34,516 bases of DNA from a virus. Below, in pieces: positions 1,127 to 29,614 of the stretch. How positions within the stretch are numbered: the stretch's first letter is position 1; every line of letters begins with the position of its first letter. The notes beneath the pieces were generated by a model. The model made no database searches, had not been told where the DNA came from, and was given only the letters and a program-made list of their open reading frames with translations. Made by a program: the position numbers and the translations under genes. Location: IMG/VR virus record IMGVR_UViG_3300030943_000099, positions 1 to 34,516 of that record. The stretch is one strand, 5' to 3'.

Positions 1127-3700
1127 CTAGTTCCTAATATGCCCATTTTCATCCAAATAGCCCACTTCTTCCAGTGTACTCCAGTCTCCGTCAACCGCCC
1201 CGACCTCCTTAGCAATCTGCAGATTAACTGTGATCCATGGCCAATACTCCTTTACCTTCACTAAAAACCATTTAGATATAAGGGAATCCAATAATGCCTC
1301 TTCTTCGAGCGGGCATGCCCATTCTGCAGCGTCATGCACCTCTGCCCATGTATAGGCACCCATTCCCCGTTCTTCTACCTCTTCAACACATTTATTCATG
1401 GCCCATTGCATAACATGGTAGGCGTCACACTGCACAGAGCTATTAAAGGTGTTGTTACGTCGCATAGGAGCATAAAATCTAAATCCAGTGAATCCCTCAA
1501 GATACCCCCTCTTTTGATAGGATTTCCACTGCTCCTCTCGCCACGCTTGGTGCGTCTTAAATCGTTTATGCCAAAGAATATCATCTGCTACTCGTACACG
1601 CTCTTCAAATTGGGCAAATGTCTTTATACCCTGTTCAGCAAGATGGTCTATGAGTCCTTCTCTCTGTGCTAATTCCCAGCAGTCTGGAGCAGTTTGTTTA
1701 TAGTAAGATCCGTAAAAACTGGAAAAAACATAGGCACTCTTAATTCCAGAGCGAACTCTTTTTGTTACATCTTTTTCATCCAACATAAAGATATCTGCGG
1801 CGGATGATCGGTGCATGTCCTTTGTTGGGTCAGATGTAAACGTAATTAGATTTTTATCCCTACTATGACATGCATTTATCAAAACTTCCAAAGATTTGTA
1901 GTCATAGGCTAACAATTTATATCCCGGCTTTGGAAGAACTAGGGAGGTAATCATATTTTTAGCTTCCTCATCATGTTTAGGAAGATTATGTATATTAACG
2001 CTGCTACAACTACTTCTATATGTATCCGCACGATTCAGATAAAAGAAAGGGTGGATCATACCATCAATAGCCTCTACCTTGTACTGATGAATATACGTCC
2101 CAAGCAATTTCTTGTATTTACGCTGGGTAAGAATTAAATCTACCAGAGGACAATTCACTTTCTCCAATGCCTCTGCATCTACAGAAGGCTTTCCACTATC
2201 AGTGAGGAATGGAGGTTTGAGTTTAAGTACCCCATAAAGAAGATGACTAAGCTGGGGGCCAGAATTAAAGTTGAACACATCCTCGCCATCCCACTGTGCT
2301 ACTTCGGGGGAATTCTTGATAGCATCCTCTGCTGCTTTAATCTTACCTTCCATTTCTATAACTACTTCATTATACTTTTTCTCATTCAGGTAGAATCCAT
2401 TATGCTGAGTCTTGGTGAGGGTAACTGTACTTTCCATGAGAAATTCCATTCCCTTCATCTGGTGTTCAGAGAGATTCTGAATCTGACGGGGCACAAGGAG
2501 AGCTGTAAAGAGAGAGTCCATAGCATTATACAGGAGTAGTTCTTCTATAGGAGCCTCATTGATAGTATTAAAAGCATTATCCCCATATATCTCTACCTCT
2601 TCCTTAGTTCCCTTGAGGTATGGATCTGCAGAGGCGTCATATCCTATAATACCAAATTCCTTATATGTACACCATTTCAAACCAGTCGGACTCTGGTTAT
2701 AGACGCAATGCTGCCCCAACATAGTATCCCAATACCAATTATTCATCCAATAACCACAAAGCTCTCTTGTCCAAAGACCTTCATAGGCAATGTTATGGGC
2801 AATTTTCTTAACGTCAGAAAGCATAAGCCGCTTAAATGCTCGTCTAAATGTATCATCGCTAAAAAATGGGAAAGAATATGATACCTTACCATTAGACAGA
2901 GAAACACACTTAATAAACGCCCCTTTACGAAAGGCTTTTAGGCTGTTTGTTTCATAATCGAAGGACACTGATTCCCACGACATAGCTTCGTCTATCCAAT
3001 CAAGGGCTACATCTATATCCTGAGTAGTTTTACACATAGAGGCATAATCAACAATCTTAACGGGTTCAAGACCAAATGCCTGTGACATATCCTTCTTCCA
3101 GCGTTTGAATACCGCTTCATCTCTCTGGTAAAAAGGTTTTGAGAGTTTTCCATCTGAATAGGCATAAGCGTCAAGCATATCCTGCACAGACCATGTAGGT
3201 ACTAGCCACATACCAAGTTCCTGATCTGGCACACAGGTTCCGTAGAAATCTTTGGCTGGAGTCCCCGTCAACCGCCCTGAAATCCTCGGTGCTATCATAT
3301 AGTTAAACGGCACTTCCCCCAGCAGTACAACTGCATTGGGTTCTAGTCTTTCGATAATCCTGTCAAGTCTCTTCCTACAAGCCTTCAGCTCTGCCGTACC
3401 GGGCCTTCTGTCTCTTGGAGGGCGGCACCCACATACGACCGTGTAAAAACAATCCTCATAGAAGTCTAGCCCAATCTCCTCAAGAGCACTCTCAAGGAAC
3501 ACAGCCTCATCCCCATAGCCTAATTCGCCTTTGAGATCTTCCCGTGAGGTGGGCTGTGAACCAATAATGAGAACATTCTTTTTGCCCTTGCCTATGAACT
3601 TGAGCTTAGGAGATTTGCATACTGCTGACAGACCACAGGCTTCGCAGTCTGGCTCATTGGATTCAACTTTGGTGGTGTAGAACTTCTTGGATTTAGCCAT
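1127..3700 (-). CDS. family A DNA polymerase with N-terminal uracil-glycosylase-like domain
   Basis: The 857-aa replicative polymerase of the phage. Residues about 15-205 match family 4 uracil-DNA glycosylases: C19xxC22, then GCRPPRDRRP with C92 and C108, the four Fe-S cysteines with the expected C-x15-C spacing. The glycosylase motif GEAPG reads GSQPT, and the usual HP(S/A) motif reads PTWSVQ, so glycosylase activity is doubtful. A 3'-5' exonuclease follows (D248-Y-E250; AHNIAYE; YNAMD). Then comes the PolA domain: motif A (AYDYKSLEV), motif B (RSGIKSAYVFSSFYG) and motif C (EVHDAAEW, where the usual HDE reads HDA). A UDG-like domain at the N terminus of phage polymerase is known from SPO1. 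Start ATG overlaps the upstream stop (TAATG) with GAGGAAG before it. Confidence 0.95.
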   Translation of the reverse strand: MAKSKKFYTTKVESNEPDCEACGLSAVCKSPKLKFIGKGKKNVLIIGSQPTSREDLKGELGYGDEAVFLESALEEIGLDFYEDCFYTVVCGCRPPRDRRPGTAELKACRKRLDRIIERLEPNAVVLLGEVPFNYMIAPRISGRLTGTPAKDFYGTCVPDQELGMWLVPTWSVQDMLDAYAYSDGKLSKPFYQRDEAVFKRWKKDMSQAFGLEPVKIVDYASMCKTTQDIDVALDWIDEAMSWESVSFDYETNSLKAFRKGAFIKCVSLSNGKVSYSFPFFSDDTFRRAFKRLMLSDVKKIAHNIAYEGLWTRELCGYWMNNWYWDTMLGQHCVYNQSPTGLKWCTYKEFGIIGYDASADPYLKGTKEEVEIYGDNAFNTINEAPIEELLLYNAMDSLFTALLVPRQIQNLSEHQMKGMEFLMESTVTLTKTQHNGFYLNEKKYNEVVIEMEGKIKAAEDAIKNSPEVAQWDGEDVFNFNSGPQLSHLLYGVLKLKPPFLTDSGKPSVDAEALEKVNCPLVDLILTQRKYKKLLGTYIHQYKVEAIDGMIHPFFYLNRADTYRSSCSSVNIHNLPKHDEEAKNMITSLVLPKPGYKLLAYDYKSLEVLINACHSRDKNLITFTSDPTKDMHRSSAADIFMLDEKDVTKRVRSGIKSAYVFSSFYGSYYKQTAPDCWELAQREGLIDHLAEQGIKTFAQFEERVRVADDILWHKRFKTHQAWREEQWKSYQKRGYLEGFTGFRFYAPMRRNNTFNSSVQCDAYHVMQWAMNKCVEEVEERGMGAYTWAEVHDAAEWACPLEEEALLDSLISKWFLVKVKEYWPWITVNLQIAKEVGAVDGDWSTLEEVGYLDENGHIRN

Positions 3701-10006: not shown

Positions 10007-10492
10007 CTATGCTGTTCTTCCGAACTCACCGTGGTATTTCTTTGATGCTGTGCAATACGCCTCGTGGCCTTCTAAAGCCGTATTGAAATATCCTAAAAAT
10101 ATATTTTTACCTTTGTACTTTATAGAAGTCCCGAACTTATCTCTTTCTTTACTATAAAAGACACCTTTATACCCCGACTTATTAGATTTAGACAATCTTT
10201 GGTTTATTCCATTCTGCTTCTGTGTACATTTCCTAAGATTGCATTTTCTGTTATCAAGGGTATCTCCATTCGCATGGGCACATACCCATCCATCATTTAG
10301 TTCCAAACCTAGTATCATTCGATGTAGACTATGCTTATAGGATCTTCCTGAATTATCTTTATAAGAATGTATAAAATATATTTTACCACATCGTCTAAAG
10401 TCAGTTGATCTGACGTGCCACTTATACTGCCTAACCCTATCATAATCTTCTTCGTCTATCTGCACTTTATAACCACAAAGCTCTATTTCCAT
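10007..10492 (-). CDS. HNH/AP2 homing endonuclease with substituted metal-site Asp
   Basis: 161 aa. N-terminal shared module (LCGYKVQIDEEDYDRV), HNH core with SLHR (55-58) and ANGDTLDNRKCNLR, then one AP2 domain at about 105-157 (SGYKGVFY...NIFLGYFNTA). The usual VDH reads CAH at 71-73, so the aspartate next to the key histidine is alanine. In I-HmuI the equivalent Asp binds the catalytic metal, so cutting may be lost or weak. The ribosome site AGGAGG lies 11 nt from the ATG. The gene is wedged 2 nt upstream of the primase start, splitting the operon. Confidence 0.9.
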   Translation of the reverse strand: MEIELCGYKVQIDEEDYDRVRQYKWHVRSTDFRRCGKIYFIHSYKDNSGRSYKHSLHRMILGLELNDGWVCAHANGDTLDNRKCNLRKCTQKQNGINQRLSKSNKSGYKGVFYSKERDKFGTSIKYKGKNIFLGYFNTALEGHEAYCTASKKYHGEFGRTA

Positions 10493-10520
10493 TTTTACCT
10501 ATTCCTCCTAAAAAATAAAA

Positions 10521-10594
10521 AGCCCCCAGACAGAATTGAACTGCTGACCTTAACCTTACAACAGGTACGCTACTACCAACTGAGCTATAGGGGC
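10521..10594 (-). tRNA. tRNA-Thr (anticodon TGT)
   Basis: Minus strand, 74 nt. The 7-bp acceptor stem is GCCCCTA/TGGGGGC (one wobble). The D arm carries AGTTGGTAG, and the anticodon loop is GTTGTAA, with T33 and anticodon TGT. The variable loop is 5 nt and the T loop TTCAATT. Geometry is exact, but three stems carry mismatches (13-22, 29-41, 49-65). CCA is not encoded. Functional or slightly degenerate. Confidence 0.72.
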
Positions 10595-17502: not shown

Positions 17503-17605
17503 AATAGCCTCCTTGTGTAGCTTCATCAAAACTCAATCTAAATCGCCCCTAGACCCCTTCTCGTGCGTCTGGAGAGGGGTTAAGCTCTGCATCTGTGATC
17601 TTTGT

Positions 17606-17725
17606 CTACAAATCACAAATCTCGTTAATATACATTCTGTCCCCAGAGAACCAATAACTACCTTTAAGGAGACATAGGGATTCGCTGATTATATTGAGTT
17701 CCTTTTCACTAAGTTCTACCTTCAT
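17606..17725 (-). CDS. hypothetical protein, 39 aa
   Basis: MKVELSEKELNIISESLCLL, then KGSYWFSGDRMYINEICDL. GGGGGGTG lies 4 nt before the ATG and the gene sits directly behind a good promoter, so it is probably the first gene of the leftward arm. Unknown function. Confidence 0.6.
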   Translation of the reverse strand: MKVELSEKELNIISESLCLLKGSYWFSGDRMYINEICDL

Positions 17726-17751
17726 AAAACACCCCCCATTAGAATAACCAG

Positions 17752-17780
17752 AGTATAGCACACCCGCGAAATCCTGTCAA
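17752..17780 (-). promoter_or_regulatory. promoter, first of the leftward arm
   Basis: Minus strand TTGACA, 17-bp spacer, TATACT. The expected start near 17745 gives a short leader for the 39-aa gene. Confidence 0.82.
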
Positions 17781-17789
17781 GGGCTGCTG

Positions 17790-17940
17790 GCGCGCCGAAA
17801 CCCTATTTTTTCGGAATTCTTCTCTTTCTTTATTTTCAGGTGGATATTAAAATTCTTAGAACAGAGGAACTCTGTATATTATGTAATAATATCTGTAGTA
17901 ATATAGTGTAGTATTCTAATGTAGTAATTTAATGTCTTAA
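17790..17940. other. AT-rich non-coding stretch at the divergent junction
   Basis: CCGAA/TTCGG flanks a T run (17797-17814); ACAGAG-GAA-CTCTGT forms a hairpin (about 17861-17875). Bases 17876-17936 are almost pure A/T with repeated TAGTAAT/TAGTATT words. No gene. AT-rich DNA next to repeats and a putative initiator gene fits an origin unwinding element, but this is inference. Confidence 0.5.
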
Positions 17941-17950
17941 GAAGCATTCT

Positions 17951-18034
17951 CCTTGAAGGCAAATCCAGAAGTTACTTCAAGGCATTTCTGATACTCCTTG
18001 AAGGCAAATTCAGTTATCCTTGAAGTAACTTCTG
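17951..18034. repeat. four CCTTGAAG operator-like repeats with a 17-bp inverted repeat
   Basis: CCTTGAAGGCAAAT(C/T)CAG occurs at 17951 and 17996 as direct repeats. CAGAAGTTACTTCAAGG (17966-17982) and CCTTGAAGTAACTTCTG (18018-18034) are perfect reverse complements. Four copies of the CCTTGAAG core thus lie just upstream of the rightward promoter, spaced about 20-24 bp. They look like binding sites for a regulator or an initiator. Confidence 0.75.
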
Positions 18035-18045
18035 AATAAGGGTAC

Positions 18046-18074
18046 TTGACAAAAGTATAAACCTCTGATACTAT
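18046..18074 (+). promoter_or_regulatory. rightward promoter of the plus-strand arm
   Basis: TTGACA, 17-bp spacer, TACTAT. Transcription from near 18081 runs through the structured leader into the winged-helix gene. It shares its DNA with a leftward promoter on the other strand. Confidence 0.8.
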
Positions 18075-18082
18075 TCTGTCAA
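18054..18082 (-). promoter_or_regulatory. leftward promoter overlapping the rightward one
   Basis: Minus strand TTGACA (18077-18082), 17-bp spacer, TATACT (18054-18059). It occupies the same 37 bp as the rightward promoter in opposite orientation and would transcribe leftward through the CCTTGAAG repeats. Confidence 0.7.
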
Positions 18083-18103
18083 CATCATAGATGTTCAGAA
18101 CAT

Positions 18104-18211
18104 ATACTCAAGACTAGCCACTTTGAGTATGCGTTTTGATAACGCAGAGAGCCTTTTGTATACATCCGTGGCTACCCGAAAGGGGGGTGTATACAAGAGG
18201 CTTCATTTTTT
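18104..18211 (+). ncRNA. structured leader RNA: three hairpins, bulge-loop kissing and U run
   Basis: Hairpin 1 is ATACTCAA/TTGAGTAT (18104-18130), with an 11-nt loop containing TAGCCAC. Hairpin 2 is GCGTT/AACGC (18131-18145). Hairpin 3 (18149-18203) is a long helix AGCCTTTTGTATACATCC / GGGTGTATACAAGAGGCT, capped by CCC-GAAA-GGG and interrupted only by a 7-nt one-sided bulge, GTGGCTA (18168-18174). That bulge is the exact complement of the hairpin 1 loop. TTTTTT (18206-18211) follows, directly before AGGAG of the next gene. It has the shape of an intrinsic terminator or attenuator whose folding can be tuned by the loop-bulge contact. No known riboswitch class recognised. Confidence 0.7.
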
Positions 18212-18222
18212 AGGAGTTCTTT

Positions 18223-19560
18223 ATGTCTACAGACAGTGCCATCGATTTACTACAGCCGCATGTCTACTACTACCAATTTGGTAATATTAGGATAGCATCA
18301 AAATCCTCTGATAAGTTCTATAGACTAGATGCTGCAGCCATAGTTCTGCTATCCCAGATAGTTTACTGGCATCCAAAGGCGCGAAAGCATGATTATTGGG
18401 TTTATAAGACACAGGAGGAGTTTTCTCAGGAAACAGCATTATCCTGTAAGCAAATAGCTAGGGCACGGGATGATTTAGTTGCTCTGGGGTTACTTAAGTA
18501 TGAGTTAAGGGGCTATCCACCAAAGGCATACTTTAAGCTGAATACCTGTATGTTTGATAAGTATGCAGAAGCTCTGGCAGATAGACAAGAGGAGAAAGAC
18601 CCTACTGTCTACATTAGTGTAGAGGAATTAGAAACCCTGTCAACACATACTGATGACACATCCTCTACGCCTTCCAGTGAAGGGGATTCAGAAATTCCGG
18701 AAGACTGGATGCCTATTTTTGCTAGAATAAGGGAGTGTGGGTTTTATCAAGATAAGGCCGAAAGGGATCCTAAAGGGGCTATCTATGGGTATAATCAGAA
18801 GCTATATACATACATTTCAGAGATTCTTGATGGTTCTTTCTATGAGAAGAGCGGGTACCACATTATAAAGAGGCACAACTTAGAAGGACTAACAAGAGAC
18901 AAAATTATTGATTGGTTGGTAGAGGCAAATAGACTTCCTGCTGGGAGAGAAGGCTATGCTAATAGGGCTATTCTATATCTGACCAAGACAGCTACCTATA
19001 GTCCTGTGCTAAATGCTCTTTGTGATGGGGCTAATGGATCTTCTAAGTCTGCAAAATTCCTCATCAAAGAAGAATCCTATGAACCTGGAAAGGATGCTAA
19101 TGATAAAAGGGGTGATCGACCACCAGAGTCCATCTGGTTTGGAGAAAATAATGGGTTCAATGAGCGCCCCGACAAGTATTACTCTGAGCTAACATTCAAT
19201 CATCCTCGTGTCTGGGGATTGTATCACTGCATTAAGGAGTATGCGGAATCTTGTAAAGGTGAGGATGGAATTTGGACTAAGCACAATAAACCGGGGACAA
19301 AGGTATCTGAAATAGATATTCTGTACTGGATACTCAAGGTATCTTCTGAGCATGGGGTTACTTCTGACGAGATATTTCAGAATATTATTATCGGGGATGA
19401 TCGTAATTATCTTTGGGCACTCGTGATGCAATTTATTTACAACAAGAATAGCTATAAACTGGCACGAGATGAGGTACAGAGTAAGTATTTATATTGTGGA
19501 GCGAAGGACTTAGATCCTTCTAAGTACACTAGAGCAGTTGGTAAAGGGGTAAAGAAATGA
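18223..19560 (+). CDS. winged-helix protein, probable replication initiator-like
   Basis: 445 aa, first gene of the rightward arm. Residues about 33-107 form a winged helix: YRLDAAAIVLLSQIVYWH, then WVYKTQEEFSQETALSCKQIARARDDLVALGLLKYELRGYPPKAYFKLN, the pattern found in phage replication proteins and plasmid/phage initiator N termini (an LLSQ.VYW helix, a recognition helix, the wing RG.P.KAYF). A serine/threonine-rich linker (about 140-160) follows, then a helical C-terminal region without a recognised domain. AGGAG lies 6 nt before the ATG. Repeats, AT-rich DNA and two opposed promoters lie directly upstream, so autoregulation or origin binding is plausible. A transcription regulator is the alternative. 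Confidence 0.68.
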   Translation: MSTDSAIDLLQPHVYYYQFGNIRIASKSSDKFYRLDAAAIVLLSQIVYWHPKARKHDYWVYKTQEEFSQETALSCKQIARARDDLVALGLLKYELRGYPPKAYFKLNTCMFDKYAEALADRQEEKDPTVYISVEELETLSTHTDDTSSTPSSEGDSEIPEDWMPIFARIRECGFYQDKAERDPKGAIYGYNQKLYTYISEILDGSFYEKSGYHIIKRHNLEGLTRDKIIDWLVEANRLPAGREGYANRAILYLTKTATYSPVLNALCDGANGSSKSAKFLIKEESYEPGKDANDKRGDRPPESIWFGENNGFNERPDKYYSELTFNHPRVWGLYHCIKEYAESCKGEDGIWTKHNKPGTKVSEIDILYWILKVSSEHGVTSDEIFQNIIIGDDRNYLWALVMQFIYNKNSYKLARDEVQSKYLYCGAKDLDPSKYTRAVGKGVKK

Positions 19561-19989: not shown

Positions 19990-20238
19990 ATGATAACAAA
20001 GCATGATGTGAAGTGGTTTGATTTGTGGCTACATGAATATTGTTTTCAAGCTCCCCCTAAAGAGGATTGGATGACTATGAAGGATTCTTACCTGGCTGGT
20101 ATTGAACGAGCTAAACAAGATTCCGCTCAGATTCAGTGTTCCTACTGCGATAGGAAGGTGCAATGTCATTTTCCAGAGTATTGTGAGAAATATAAAGCAA
20201 TTCTTGGACTTGACACATCTCCTGCGTCTGTGCTATAA
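19990..20238 (+). CDS. cysteine-containing small protein, 82 aa
   Basis: N-terminal KHDVKWFDLWLHEYCFQAPPKEDW, then CSYCDRKVQCHFPEYCEKY: five cysteines, with CxxC-x5-C-x5-C resembling a compact metal site. The 3' end overlaps the promoter for the repeat protein. Unknown function. Confidence 0.68.
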   Translation: MITKHDVKWFDLWLHEYCFQAPPKEDWMTMKDSYLAGIERAKQDSAQIQCSYCDRKVQCHFPEYCEKYKAILGLDTSPASVL

Positions 20239-20239
20239 T
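20210..20239 (+). promoter_or_regulatory. promoter for the repeat-protein gene
   Basis: TTGACA, 18-bp spacer, TATAAT, overlapping the stop of the preceding gene. Expected start near 20246. Confidence 0.82.
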
Positions 20240-20269
20240 GCTCTTAGGTTGATTATTAAGGAGGCTACT

Positions 20270-21088
20270 ATGAAAGCATACAAGGTATTTAATTCAGATT
20301 GGACTTGCAGAGGGTTTCAGTACGAAGTAGGTAAAACCTATACTCATGAAGGAAAAGAGGAGTGTTGCTCGGCTGGGTTTCACGCTTGCAAGAAAGTAAG
20401 TGATTGCTTTTCTTATTATTCCTTTGATCCTGCAAACAAGGTTGCAGAGGTAGAGCTGTCTGGAGTAGTCTTGGGAGAAGACCAAGATAAACAATGTTCT
20501 TCAGTTATTACTATCATGCGTGAGGTTTCTTGGGAAGAGATGCTTACTCTTGCAAACACAGGAGTGGGGAACTCTGGTAACATGAACTCTGGTAACATGA
20601 ACTCTGGTGACAGAAACTCTGGTAACATGAACTCTGGTGACAGAAACTCTGGTAACTGGAACTCTGGTAACGGGAACTCTGGTAACGGGAACTCTGGTGA
20701 CAGAAACTCTGGTAACTGGAACTCTGGTAACATGAACTCTGGTAACATGAACTCTGGTAACGGGAACTCTGGTATGTTTAATACCACTGAGCCATTTATT
20801 CGGTTATTCAATAAAGACACCAGTCTTACTAGAGATCGTCTTAATGTTCCTAGCTTCCTATATTTTAATCTCACTCAGTGGGTGTCCCACGATACTGCTA
20901 CAGAAGAAGAAAAAGCAGAGCATAAACAGGATATTGAAGCTTGTGGAGGATTCTTGAAGACTTTTACATATAAAGATGCTTTCAAACGAGCTTGGGTCAA
21001 TGCAAGCAACGAAGAGCGTCAGCAGGTGCAGAATCTGCCTAATTTCGATGCAGACATCTTCTTTGAGATCAGTGGTATTAGAGTTTAA
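20270..21088 (+). CDS. DUF7666-like protein with 14 NSGxx pentapeptide repeats
   Basis: 272 aa from the ATG at 20270 (AAGGAGG 6 nt upstream); an in-frame extension upstream is not used. The N-terminal domain MKAYKVFNSDWTCRGFQYEV...CCSAGFHACKKVSDCFSYY is the conserved part of a family of phage proteins I recall as DUF7666. Residues about 101-170 are 14 consecutive N-S-G-[N/D]-[M/R/W/G] units, expected to form a right-handed beta-helix-like rod. The C terminus (MFNTTEPFIRLFNKDTSL...FFEISGIRV) closes it. Role unknown; pentapeptide-type helices often mimic DNA. Confidence 0.8.
   Translation: MKAYKVFNSDWTCRGFQYEVGKTYTHEGKEECCSAGFHACKKVSDCFSYYSFDPANKVAEVELSGVVLGEDQDKQCSSVITIMREVSWEEMLTLANTGVGNSGNMNSGNMNSGDRNSGNMNSGDRNSGNWNSGNGNSGNGNSGDRNSGNWNSGNMNSGNMNSGNGNSGMFNTTEPFIRLFNKDTSLTRDRLNVPSFLYFNLTQWVSHDTATEEEKAEHKQDIEACGGFLKTFTYKDAFKRAWVNASNEERQQVQNLPNFDADIFFEISGIRV
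20570..20779 (+). repeat. 14 tandem 15-bp units encoding NSGxx
   Basis: AACTCTGGT is invariant in every unit; only the last two codons vary (AACATG, GACAGA, AACTGG, AACGGG, and ATGTTT in the final unit). Near identity at DNA level points to ongoing unit gain, loss and shuffling. Confidence 0.92.
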
Positions 21089-21491: not shown

Positions 21492-21649
21492 AAAAGCAGA
21501 TTGATATATGGGAAGGTGAAGTTAGAGACGGATCATCGTTCATTTATAGTGGGATGGCTGTAGGTGAAGATACTATTGATGAAATTATGGATTCCATTGT
21601 TGCTCTTGAAGGTCATAGGGTTAAGATTACCGTGGAGGTAATTGAATGA
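21488..21649 (+). CDS. hypothetical protein, 53 aa
   Basis: MKKQIDIWEGEVRDGSSFIY, then SGMAVGEDTIDEIMDSIV and a strand RVKITVEVIE. It overlaps both neighbours by 4 bp (ATGA junctions). Small alpha/beta protein of unknown role. Confidence 0.68.
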   Translation: MKKQIDIWEGEVRDGSSFIYSGMAVGEDTIDEIMDSIVALEGHRVKITVEVIE

Positions 21650-22110
21650 GTAAAATTGTAGTTTGTGGCCTTGATGGGACTGTTTCCAAGGTAGGCGACA
21701 GGATTAAGTATCTTGGACAGTCTCCGAAGGACTGGGATGCTTTCTATGGTGCTTGCGGGGAAGATAAACCTGTTGATTCAATCATTAAGATTGTTGAGGA
21801 TCTTGTGTTTGGTTCTGGCTATGATATTGTGCTTTGCTCTGGTCGTAGAAAATCATGTGAAGAAGCTACACGACAATGGCTTCAGTACAACACTCATTGG
21901 TTTATGTATGCATACGATATTCTTCTTCGTAAAGACGGAGACTTCCGTTCGGATACCATCGTTAAGAAAGAGCTTCTTGACAACTACCTCTCCGAGAATG
22001 ATTACACTAAAGACGATGTGGCTTTTATCCTTGAGGATAGGTCTTCTGTGGTCAAGATGTGGCGTGATGCTGGTTATACTTGCCTTCAGGTGGCAGAAGG
22101 AGACTTTTGA
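21646..22110 (+). CDS. HAD-superfamily phosphatase-like protein lacking the nucleophile
   Basis: 154 aa resembling the 3'-phosphatase (HAD) domain of T4 polynucleotide kinase. Motif I, normally DxDGT, reads G8-L-D10-G-T: the nucleophile aspartate is glycine (codon GGC). Motif II is CSGR (64-67), motif III a lysine near 107-108 (VKKELL). Motif IV reads LED131R with E in place of the first D, followed by SSVVKMWRDAGYTCLQVAEGDF, which is very characteristic of the PNK-type family. Without the nucleophile it should not catalyse phosphoryl transfer by the normal route; a binding role or a pseudoenzyme is likely. Confidence 0.82.
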   Translation: MSKIVVCGLDGTVSKVGDRIKYLGQSPKDWDAFYGACGEDKPVDSIIKIVEDLVFGSGYDIVLCSGRRKSCEEATRQWLQYNTHWFMYAYDILLRKDGDFRSDTIVKKELLDNYLSENDYTKDDVAFILEDRSSVVKMWRDAGYTCLQVAEGDF

Positions 22111-22578: not shown

Positions 22579-22760
22579 GATCATATAATGAGCAGATGTT
22601 TAAGGATGCTTTGTTTGACGAGTACTGTAAGCTTACGGATTTACTCAAGCAGAAGGAAATTCTGGATGCAAAGATTGAGAAGTCCAAGCACACTCTTGAG
22701 AACATAGCTGAGAACTGGAAACATATGGACGAGTGGAAGGCGGGAAAGGTTAATGCTTAA
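22575..22760 (+). CDS. hypothetical coiled-coil-like protein, 61 aa
   Basis: Helical throughout, with heptad-like KLTDLLKQKEILDAKIEKSK followed by LENIAENWKHMDEW. It starts at an ATGA overlap and ends 8 bp inside the GNAT-like gene. Confidence 0.7.
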   Translation: MRSYNEQMFKDALFDEYCKLTDLLKQKEILDAKIEKSKHTLENIAENWKHMDEWKAGKVNA

Positions 22761-23244
22761 ACCAGCAATACTCTACAAAGAGGCTCTAGCAGAAAAGGCT
22801 AAGGTGGTTATTGATAAGCCAGAGAAATATCAGTTCATAGATTTATGTAACTATCTTTGTTATAATACGTTTGATGTTGACGAAGTGGACGAGTATGTTA
22901 GAGTAAAACGTGTATCCATAAATGCTAATGGAGATGTGTTAGGGTTTATGAAAGCTACTATATGTAGACAGGATAATTCTGTCTGCGAATTATTATTTGT
23001 TAATTTTGATTTAACCAAGCTCTCTATTACTTTTGTACGAGATATGGAAGCATTCTTGCAGTATCTATTGAAGAACTTCAGGAAGGTTTCTTTTCAGTGT
23101 GTGGTAGGGAATCCTGCAGAACGACTCTACGACAAGGTAATTGAGAAGTATCACGGTAGGGTTGTTGGTGTGAAGAAGCAGGAAGCGTTGTTACAAGATG
23201 GTCAGTTTTATGACCTGAAATTATATGAGATAGTAAAGGAGTAA
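22753..23244 (+). CDS. GNAT-like acetyltransferase fold protein, 163 aa
   Basis: A central strand pair NANGDVLGFMKATICRQDN, then a helix (MEAFLQYLLKNF), FQCVVGNPAERLYDKVIEKYHGRVVGVKKQ and DGQFYDLKLYEIV. The order (internal strand, helix, V.GN.A.RLYDK....G..VG, final strand ending YEI) matches phage GNAT-like proteins. The acetyl-CoA loop (Q/RxxGxG/A) is not evident, so the activity is uncertain. Confidence 0.62.
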   Translation: MLKPAILYKEALAEKAKVVIDKPEKYQFIDLCNYLCYNTFDVDEVDEYVRVKRVSINANGDVLGFMKATICRQDNSVCELLFVNFDLTKLSITFVRDMEAFLQYLLKNFRKVSFQCVVGNPAERLYDKVIEKYHGRVVGVKKQEALLQDGQFYDLKLYEIVKE

Positions 23245-24393: not shown

Positions 24394-24463
24394 TTATGCC
24401 TGTGTGAAACTTGGGTATAATGAGGGGTATTTACAAAAATATTCTATAGTGTATGGTGTTATT

Positions 24464-25153
24464 ATGAAACAAACTAATATAACTATTGTCCAGAATTGTG
24501 GCACTTATTCCGAGATAGACATATCCGGGATAAGCGGTATCTATGTAGATAATGATGATATTGAAAGGATCATGAAATATCGGTGGTATCTTGATGCTAA
24601 AAAGGCTAAAGTAGATGGGTTATATTATTTTAAGGCTAATTTTGAAATAATATCTAAAAAGCCTTATAGATATAAAATGTTATCATTGCATCGTCTTATA
24701 ATGAATCAAATAGAATTTGATGGTGTTCATGTTGTGGATCATATAGACCAAAATTCTAAAAATAATCGTAAAGAAAATTTGCGTATATGTACTGCTAGTG
24801 AAAATCTACATAATTGCAGGAAGGATATAGACCGCCCTAAATTTCTACCTTATGATGTAACTGAGGAGTATTTTAATTCAAGGTTATATATTGCTAGTTC
24901 TGCATTCATAGGAAATTTACTTGTCACTAAACTAACGCATAACGATTGTACTTATATTATACAATCAGTAAAGTTTAAGGGAATGTCTACTAGGAATAAG
25001 CTAGGGTATCCCGGAATCGGATACAATGCAGAACGTAATAAATTTGAGGTATTTCATAAAGGTGTGAGGTGTGGTCTATATAATTCTATAGAAGATGCTT
25101 TACTTAAGGCATATAGTAAACATAAAATACCCTATGAAATATATAAATTATGA
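24464..25153 (+). CDS. HNH/AP2 homing endonuclease, 229 aa
   Basis: HNH_3 core intact: SLHR at about 74-77 and VVDHIDQNSKNNRKENLR (90-107). The N-terminal module ISGIYVDNDDIERIMKYRWY is shared with the other HNH genes. A variable middle follows, then an AP2-like domain at about 180-220 (GYPGIGYNAERNKFEVFHKG...GLYNSIEDA). I use the ATG at 24464; a GTG at 24404 would extend it by 20 residues, and neither start has a clear ribosome site. The gene is much more AT-rich than its neighbours and sits alone in non-coding DNA, consistent with mobility. Confidence 0.85.
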   Translation: MKQTNITIVQNCGTYSEIDISGISGIYVDNDDIERIMKYRWYLDAKKAKVDGLYYFKANFEIISKKPYRYKMLSLHRLIMNQIEFDGVHVVDHIDQNSKNNRKENLRICTASENLHNCRKDIDRPKFLPYDVTEEYFNSRLYIASSAFIGNLLVTKLTHNDCTYIIQSVKFKGMSTRNKLGYPGIGYNAERNKFEVFHKGVRCGLYNSIEDALLKAYSKHKIPYEIYKL

Positions 25154-29149: not shown

Positions 29150-29614
29150 ATGGCAGAAATACAAATTTCAGGTTACACAGTATTAGTCGATGACGAAGAT
29201 CTTGGGCGTATACAGGCGTTAGCATGGCATGTGGGCAGTTTAGGATCAGGCAGAGATCCCTATTTTGAACACTGCATATGGGAGCAACCTGTTATTCGAT
29301 TAAATAGGTTTATTATGGGCTGTACTTATAAGGATGGTAAAGTAGTAGACCATATTAACGGGGATACGTTAGATAACAGGAAACAGAATCTCAGGGTATG
29401 CACAAATGTAGAGAATTGTAGGAATGGGAGAACTAGAAAGAACAATAGTGGGTATAAGGGAGTAGTGTATGAGAAACGGGTGAACTTATACAGAGCCAGA
29501 ATAACCAAAGACTATAAAACCTATAGTGTGGGATATTTCCATACAGCAGAAGAAGCCTATGAAGCTCGTTGCAAGGCTCTGGAGGAGTTTCATGGCAAAT
29601 TTGCAAGACCTTAA
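29150..29614 (+). CDS. HNH/AP2 homing endonuclease, 154 aa
   Basis: N-terminal module ISGYTVLVDDEDLGRIQALAW, HNH core VVDHINGDTLDNRKQNLR (66-82, DH intact), one AP2 domain at about 99-152 (NSGYKGVVYEKR...SVGYFHTAEEAYEA). The usual LHR before the core reads LNR (51-53), so the first histidine of the family pattern is asparagine. AAGGAG lies 7 nt before the ATG. Stand-alone between non-coding DNA and the envelope module. Confidence 0.9.
   Translation: MAEIQISGYTVLVDDEDLGRIQALAWHVGSLGSGRDPYFEHCIWEQPVIRLNRFIMGCTYKDGKVVDHINGDTLDNRKQNLRVCTNVENCRNGRTRKNNSGYKGVVYEKRVNLYRARITKDYKTYSVGYFHTAEEAYEARCKALEEFHGKFARP

Follow-up and report, generated by a model that had tools for sequence, protein, structure and literature searches.

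The 34.5-kb phage record analysed here (the window, 34,516 nucleotides) is predicted to encode a structured leader RNA of about 130 nucleotides directly upstream of the gene for a replication initiator. Seven nucleotides in the loop of one hairpin are complementary to a bulge in a second, terminator-like hairpin, and in a related phage loop and bulge have changed together. By this comparison the structure is therefore real and selected, and the loop-bulge pairing is kept by compensatory change. The leader is a structured RNA so far undescribed, with clean comparative support, and the phages that carry it have no close relative in GenBank-derived collections. We class it as a new structured example of a kind already known, the replication-initiator leaders, and infer its function. 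The two phages have it in common but differ in the N-terminal part of the initiator and in the origin repeats.

Position of the leader in the phage genome

The genes of the window form two arms, which diverge at approximately 17530-18222. The left arm, on the minus strand, codes for SSB, primase, a SNF2-type helicase, a DnaB-like helicase and DNA polymerase A; the lysis genes and the terminase are located on the right arm, which has an O-like replication initiator as its first gene. Three features frame the leader:

17946-18037, no strand assigned: repeat cluster with direct and inverted copies of CCTTGAAGGCAAATYCAG, putative replication origin/iterons (sequence, self-match of the window, alignment with the relative G001)
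18046-18074, + strand: sigma70-type promoter, TTGACA-17-TACTAT (sequence, promoter scan; the same promoter is found in the relative, L015 10454-10482)
18223-19560, + strand: O-like replication initiator, 445 amino acids (PHROG 9773, E 5.2e-22)

The promoter upstream of the leader is predicted to be a strong one of the sigma70 type, with a start at 18081-18082, and the repeats look like an origin. An earlier note on this DNA had placed the leader at the start of a whole transcriptional arm. It does lie before the first right-arm gene, but its scope is probably narrower, with consensus promoters downstream of the initiator gene at 20210, 25422, 29661 and 31185. The relative also has a consensus promoter soon after its initiator gene (L015 12339). 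Because promoters restart soon after the initiator in both phages, the leader may govern mainly this gene, the target being initiator dosage.

Two further observations concern the region between the arms. In the window, a strong leftward promoter match (TTGACA-17-TATACT, 18082-18054, minus strand) and the rightward promoter overlap in nearly palindromic fashion; the leftward match has only a weak counterpart in the relative. Beside the left promoter, an intergenic stretch of ~190 bp (17735-17925) is ~91% identical between the two phages though non-coding, contains long identical runs such as CCGAAACCCTATTTTTTCGGAATTCTTCTC and is a possible shared regulatory site.

Predicted fold of the leader

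The predicted fold consists of the following elements, all on the plus strand:

18082-18094: HP0, 5′-terminal hairpin ACAUC-AUA-GAUGU (fold; kept in the relative)
18095-18139: HP1, extended hairpin of 17 bp, interrupted by a 1x1 internal loop and closed by a loop of 9 nt (fold and comparison)
18115-18121: UAGCCAC, loop strand of the kissing helix (sequence; UGACCAC in the relative)
18131-18145: "hairpin 2" of the earlier note (GCGUU/AACGC), alternative to the HP1 extension and 3.8-4.4 kcal/mol less stable
18140-18148: unpaired linker, UAACGCAGA in the window and UAGCGCAG in the relative, for the most part conserved (alignment, descriptor)
18149-18203: HP3, 22-bp hairpin with GAAA loop, terminator-like (fold; nine pairs with double changes in the relative)
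18168-18174: GUGGCUA, one-sided 7-nt bulge and bulge strand of the kissing helix (sequence; GUGGUCA in the relative)
18206-18211: U6 run (at 18203-18211 the 9-nt hybrid ranks in the weakest 0.4% of the 9-mers of the window)
18212-18216: Shine-Dalgarno (SD) sequence AGGAG, directly 3′ of the U run (sequence)

Most of what the earlier note had read from the letters stands. The loop sequence TAGCCAC is the perfect complement of the bulge GTGGCTA, T6 is followed by AGGAG, and HP3 is a nearly continuous 22-bp helix, laid out as 19 bp, the bulge on the 5′ strand only, 3 bp and the GAAA cap. The loop of HP1, given there as 11 nt, has this size if the closing G-U pair is open and 9 nt in the minimum free energy (MFE) fold. 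The proposed layout of three hairpins needs revision. In its extension HP1 pairs 18095-18101 with 18133-18139 across the 1x1 mismatch, over bases of hairpin 2, and is favoured by 4.4 kcal/mol in the window and 3.8 kcal/mol in the relative, so that hairpin 2 is probably replaced by the extended HP1 in both phages. HP0, a 5-bp hairpin that starts at the predicted first nucleotide of the transcript, had been overlooked.

For 18100-18225 the MFE is −45.1 kcal/mol, compared with −26.5 ± 3.5 kcal/mol in shuffled sequences, none of which was as stable (z −5.3). Thirteen promoter leaders of the window were tested, and that of the replication initiator is the only structured one (z −7.3 vs about −0.8 to +2.1). 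As the earlier note had argued, the complementarity is unlikely to be due to chance: for a 9-nt loop to match a 7-nt bulge perfectly over 7 bp, the chance p is about 2.4e-4, and a descriptor of the architecture matches only the window's leader and its homologue in 376 kb of phage DNA (both strands), with no match in 4.1 Mb of Markov-random sequence.

The modelled fold can be pictured as two long helices of similar length with the short linker below and the loop-bulge kiss above. In the window, HP1 is 18 layers tall and matches in length the 19 bp of HP3's lower stem; the values are 16 and 21 in the relative. A complete 7-bp kiss may be strained, since the bulge contains no linker nucleotides. 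According to fold prediction, the SD sequence is open in the window's leader, and the U tract and the SD sequence lie beyond the end of HP3 in the two phages alike.

Conservation and covariation in a related phage

The homologue of the leader was found in IMGVR_UViG_3300048599_000097 (G001), a phage reached via two gene-based searches for relatives. Left of the centre, its genes and those of the window are 84-93% identical, and the counterparts of two right-arm genes, 21646-22110 and 22753-23244, are 76% and 84% identical. The initiators share only ~24% identity, confined to the C-terminal part, and in the alignment the repeat cluster 17946-18037 is replaced by unrelated repeats. The leader is present at the same place.

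A covariance model was built from the window sequence alone, with nested pairs only and the kissing helix left out. In 304 kb it finds the leader of the relative with 74.6 bits (E 4.8e-15); the next match, with 23.7 bits, falls in the leader region of the window itself, on the other strand. All 51 pairs, those of the kissing helix included, are kept in the relative, and 13 of them are changed on both sides. Slid controls gave 0-2 such double changes and shuffles 6.3 ± 1.8, none of 500 reaching 13. In HP0 the stem is invariant and the loop differs (AUA vs GUAU); HP1 has two double changes and has lost one base pair, both arms together; in the linker between the two long helices UARCGCAG is conserved.

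The kissing helix is UAGCCAC/GUGGCUA in the window and UGACCAC/GUGGUCA in the relative, and its pairing is perfect in both. Two adjacent pairs are changed on both sides, and five of the seven are unchanged. Independent drift of bulge and loop, which the earlier note had named as evidence against its proposal, is thus not what the relative shows, and the compensating changes that it had suggested looking for with a covariance model are present. The covariation rests on two independent sequences; the one further window-like record spanning the leader is identical, and the contigs of other polymerase or terminase relatives stop before the divergent centre, so that the leader lies outside their span.

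Searches for further members returned the same pair of phages. Exact and gapped DNA patterns of bulge, tetraloop and loop in IMG/VR and GTDB genomes matched the window's own species and the relative; the nine other pattern matches were folded and turned out to be due to chance. Searches with neighbouring genes and intergenic sequences also led to the same two phages only. The O-like initiators of named phages lie inside operons without a leader, and the covariance model finds nothing there. No second copy of the leader was found at the left arm or at other promoters of the window.

The unrelated repeat clusters occupy the same place in the two phages (17946-18037 vs L015 10340-10440) and each adjoins a different initiator N-terminus. 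From the sequences it looks as if the origin was exchanged together with the matching DNA-binding domain.

The 3′ end of the leader resembles an intrinsic terminator

HP3 has a folding energy of −31.7 kcal/mol in the window and −36.8 kcal/mol in the relative. The U-rich tract ends ~8 nt past the base of its stem, immediately before the SD sequence of the initiator; the arrangement is that of a stable hairpin with the end of a U-rich tract within ~8-9 nt, upstream of a coding region. The terminal 9-nt RNA:DNA hybrids, TCATTTTTT / UCAUUUUUU in the window and TTTCTTTTT / UUUCUUUUU in the relative, rank, among all 9-mers of the window, in the weakest 0.4% and 0.09%, respectively, and are within the range of three clear right-arm terminators of the window phage. 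The window's leader has a modest U-tract score, 2.28 if counting starts at 18203 and 1.54 if it starts one base further on. This is below the 3.5-5.1 of the clear terminators because UCA separates the stem from U6; the relative scores 3.5. The stem of HP3 is much longer than that of a usual terminator.

The earlier note had suggested an attenuator or switch. Its first half agrees with the geometry of HP3 and U run in both phages. The switch is inferred only: folds of growing transcripts contained no alternative antiterminator pairing conserved in both phages, and the switching step is therefore conjecture.

Two other possible elements were considered and rejected. An upstream ORF starting at ATG 18092 has eight codons in the window, ending in the HP1 loop, and about 33 in the relative; it has no SD sequence and is not shared. 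In the window the 5′ end of the leader can also pair with the initiation region; in the relative this pairing is absent.

Proposed mechanism and alternative readings

The best mechanism, in which we have moderate confidence, is an intrinsic-terminator attenuator, or a terminated small RNA, that meters expression of the initiator. HP3 and the U tract would act as an intrinsic terminator, most transcripts would end at about 18211 as a compact RNA of ~130 nt, and a controlled fraction would continue into the initiator gene, so that replication initiation is metered. The contact between HP1 loop and bulge would form while the 5′ arm of HP3 emerges, ahead of its 3′ arm, and the kiss could tune the zipping of HP3 and hence termination. 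A trans-acting RNA or protein that competes for the loop or the bulge could set the level of read-through. Since the leader stays the same while the initiator N-terminus and the origin repeats differ, the DNA-binding part of the initiator is an unlikely reader of the RNA, which argues for something that both phages share, such as RNA polymerase, the ribosome or a common factor. The architecture predicts that breaking and then restoring two bases per side should alter initiator expression. More tentatively, the leader may belong to a novel class of regulatory RNAs in phages: a loop-bulge kiss in a long terminator hairpin would control read-through into the replication initiator, and would persist while the origin repeats and the DNA-binding part of the initiator are exchanged.

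It is rather unlikely that the leader acts on mRNA stability or translation instead, the 5′ hairpin and the kissing fold shielding the message of the initiator against decay from its 5′ end and the U-rich sequence beside the SD aiding ribosome binding, with no termination. The hairpin at the predicted +1 in both phages would suit such a role, as would the end of HP3 ~9 nt before the SD sequence, the open ribosome binding site in both folds and the lack of a conserved antiterminator. However, a simple protective hairpin would need no covarying loop-bulge pairing, a U run after a perfect stem is terminator geometry in both phages, and such a run is not the usual SD context in the window phage, where 3 of 75 SD-start candidates have a T5 run within 12 nt. 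Nor is it probable that the two long stem-loops act in cis as a put-like processive antiterminator and modify the polymerase to ignore the right-arm terminators. By location and overall shape, HK022 put RNA is the nearest known RNA. Its putL, of ~70 nt, is situated just past PL and forms two long stem-loops (PMC9378689), and like it the phage leader directly follows an early promoter and has two long stem-loops with bulges. The right arm of the window also has an excess of terminator-like sites (19 vs 7.7 ± 2.8 in shuffles), and the left arm shows no such excess (13 vs 10.6). The phage leader differs from put RNA in its length of 131 nt and in the 7-bp loop-bulge pairing. Against this reading, it itself ends in a terminator-like U tract, and the covariance model found no match up to E 10 in HK022 (NC_002166, cmsearch). 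At the downstream terminators 26323 and 27844, new consensus promoters come immediately afterwards, which leaves no obvious need for read-through.

The setting of an initiator gene beside origin repeats, together with a long-range loop pairing, recalls the translational copy control of IncI/IncB plasmids, in which the loop-bulge pairing would be an activating pseudoknot countered by an antisense RNA. Long-range loop pairing with an activating pseudoknot is a feature of the initiator-gene leaders of IncI, IncB and IncL/M plasmids (repZ/repA), and ColIb-P9 repZ uses a pseudoknot as translational switch (references in PMC10724649). We consider such a control highly improbable for the phage leader, which unlike the plasmid leaders shows no antisense RNA gene, leader peptide or sequestered SD sequence: a consensus scan over HP1 gave no notable antisense promoter (best 9/12 at 18111-18084, a different one in the relative), the SD sequence is unsequestered in either leader fold, and no leader ORF of similar length is common to both phages. 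The covariance model had no match in the ColIb-P9 replication region, or in phage P4. Least probable of all, and hardly to be expected, is that the terminated RNA is itself the product, a trans-acting small RNA that would for example dimerise or pair with a target, with read-through into the initiator incidental. The RNA does look self-contained, with its 5′ hairpin, compact fold and terminator-like 3′ end, and covariation cannot distinguish intramolecular from intermolecular pairing; yet in both phages, whose initiators differ, its place is immediately 5′ of the initiator SD, and other 7-mer complements in the window (51, 86, 901, 20025, 31525) are present in about the number expected by chance.

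Comparison with known RNAs

An attenuator that terminates at the U tract, our preferred mechanism, would resemble terminator-type attenuators and riboswitch-like leaders in being a structured leader with a terminal hairpin and a U tract just before the ribosome binding site. It differs from them in that no antiterminator is visible, the hairpin is very long, its bulge kisses an upstream loop, and no Rfam family matches. Phage leader RNAs that act on replication or antirepressor genes via premature termination and complementary segments are P4 CI RNA (seqA-seqC) and Gifsy-1 IsrK (PMC4825925), which share with the phage leader complementary segments and (proposed) premature termination. P4, however, uses a processed antisense RNA, whereas the segments of the phage leader are loop and bulge of the same RNA. 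Together with the pseudoknot-controlled IncI-type leaders, P4 CI RNA and IsrK are the nearest systems in presumed purpose (PMC4825925, PMC10724649 and its references). A loop-bulge kiss inside a terminator-like hairpin is absent from the compared systems as far as they are described in PMC9378689, PMC4825925 and PMC10724649.

The earlier note could not assign the RNA to a known class, and the searches agree. At gathering score, Rfam 15 (including riboswitch, C4 antisense, pRNA, epsC/EAR and pistol families) yielded only a tRNA in the whole window, and scans of both leaders at relaxed E-value gave chance-level matches far below the gathering scores. The Pistol ribozyme, too, has a hairpin loop that pairs with a downstream hairpin, on the 5′ strand of its interrupted stem. 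The likeness is one of topology alone; HP3 of the phage leader lacks the 3′-side internal loop for the cleavage site.

Other features of the window

DNA polymerase A (1127-3700, minus strand) carries a domain of the uracil-DNA-glycosylase superfamily (PF03167, residues 40-138, E 1.9e-12), which precedes its exonuclease and polymerase domains. The record L022 (IMGVR_UViG_3300031521_000408) has a polymerase 100% identical to that of the window and a DnaB-like helicase that is only 57% identical; the left arm is therefore mosaic. On the right arm, 20102-21088 (plus strand) codes for a protein of PHROG 14105 with a tandem repeat of the NSGN/NSGD/NSGM type, which DNA repeats of ~15 bp at 20567-20774 encode. 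A tRNA-Thr(TGT) is located just upstream of a probable HNH/AP2-type homing endonuclease gene (10007-10594, minus strand), and judged by sequence similar genes are present at 297-1064, 24404-25153 and 29150-29614.
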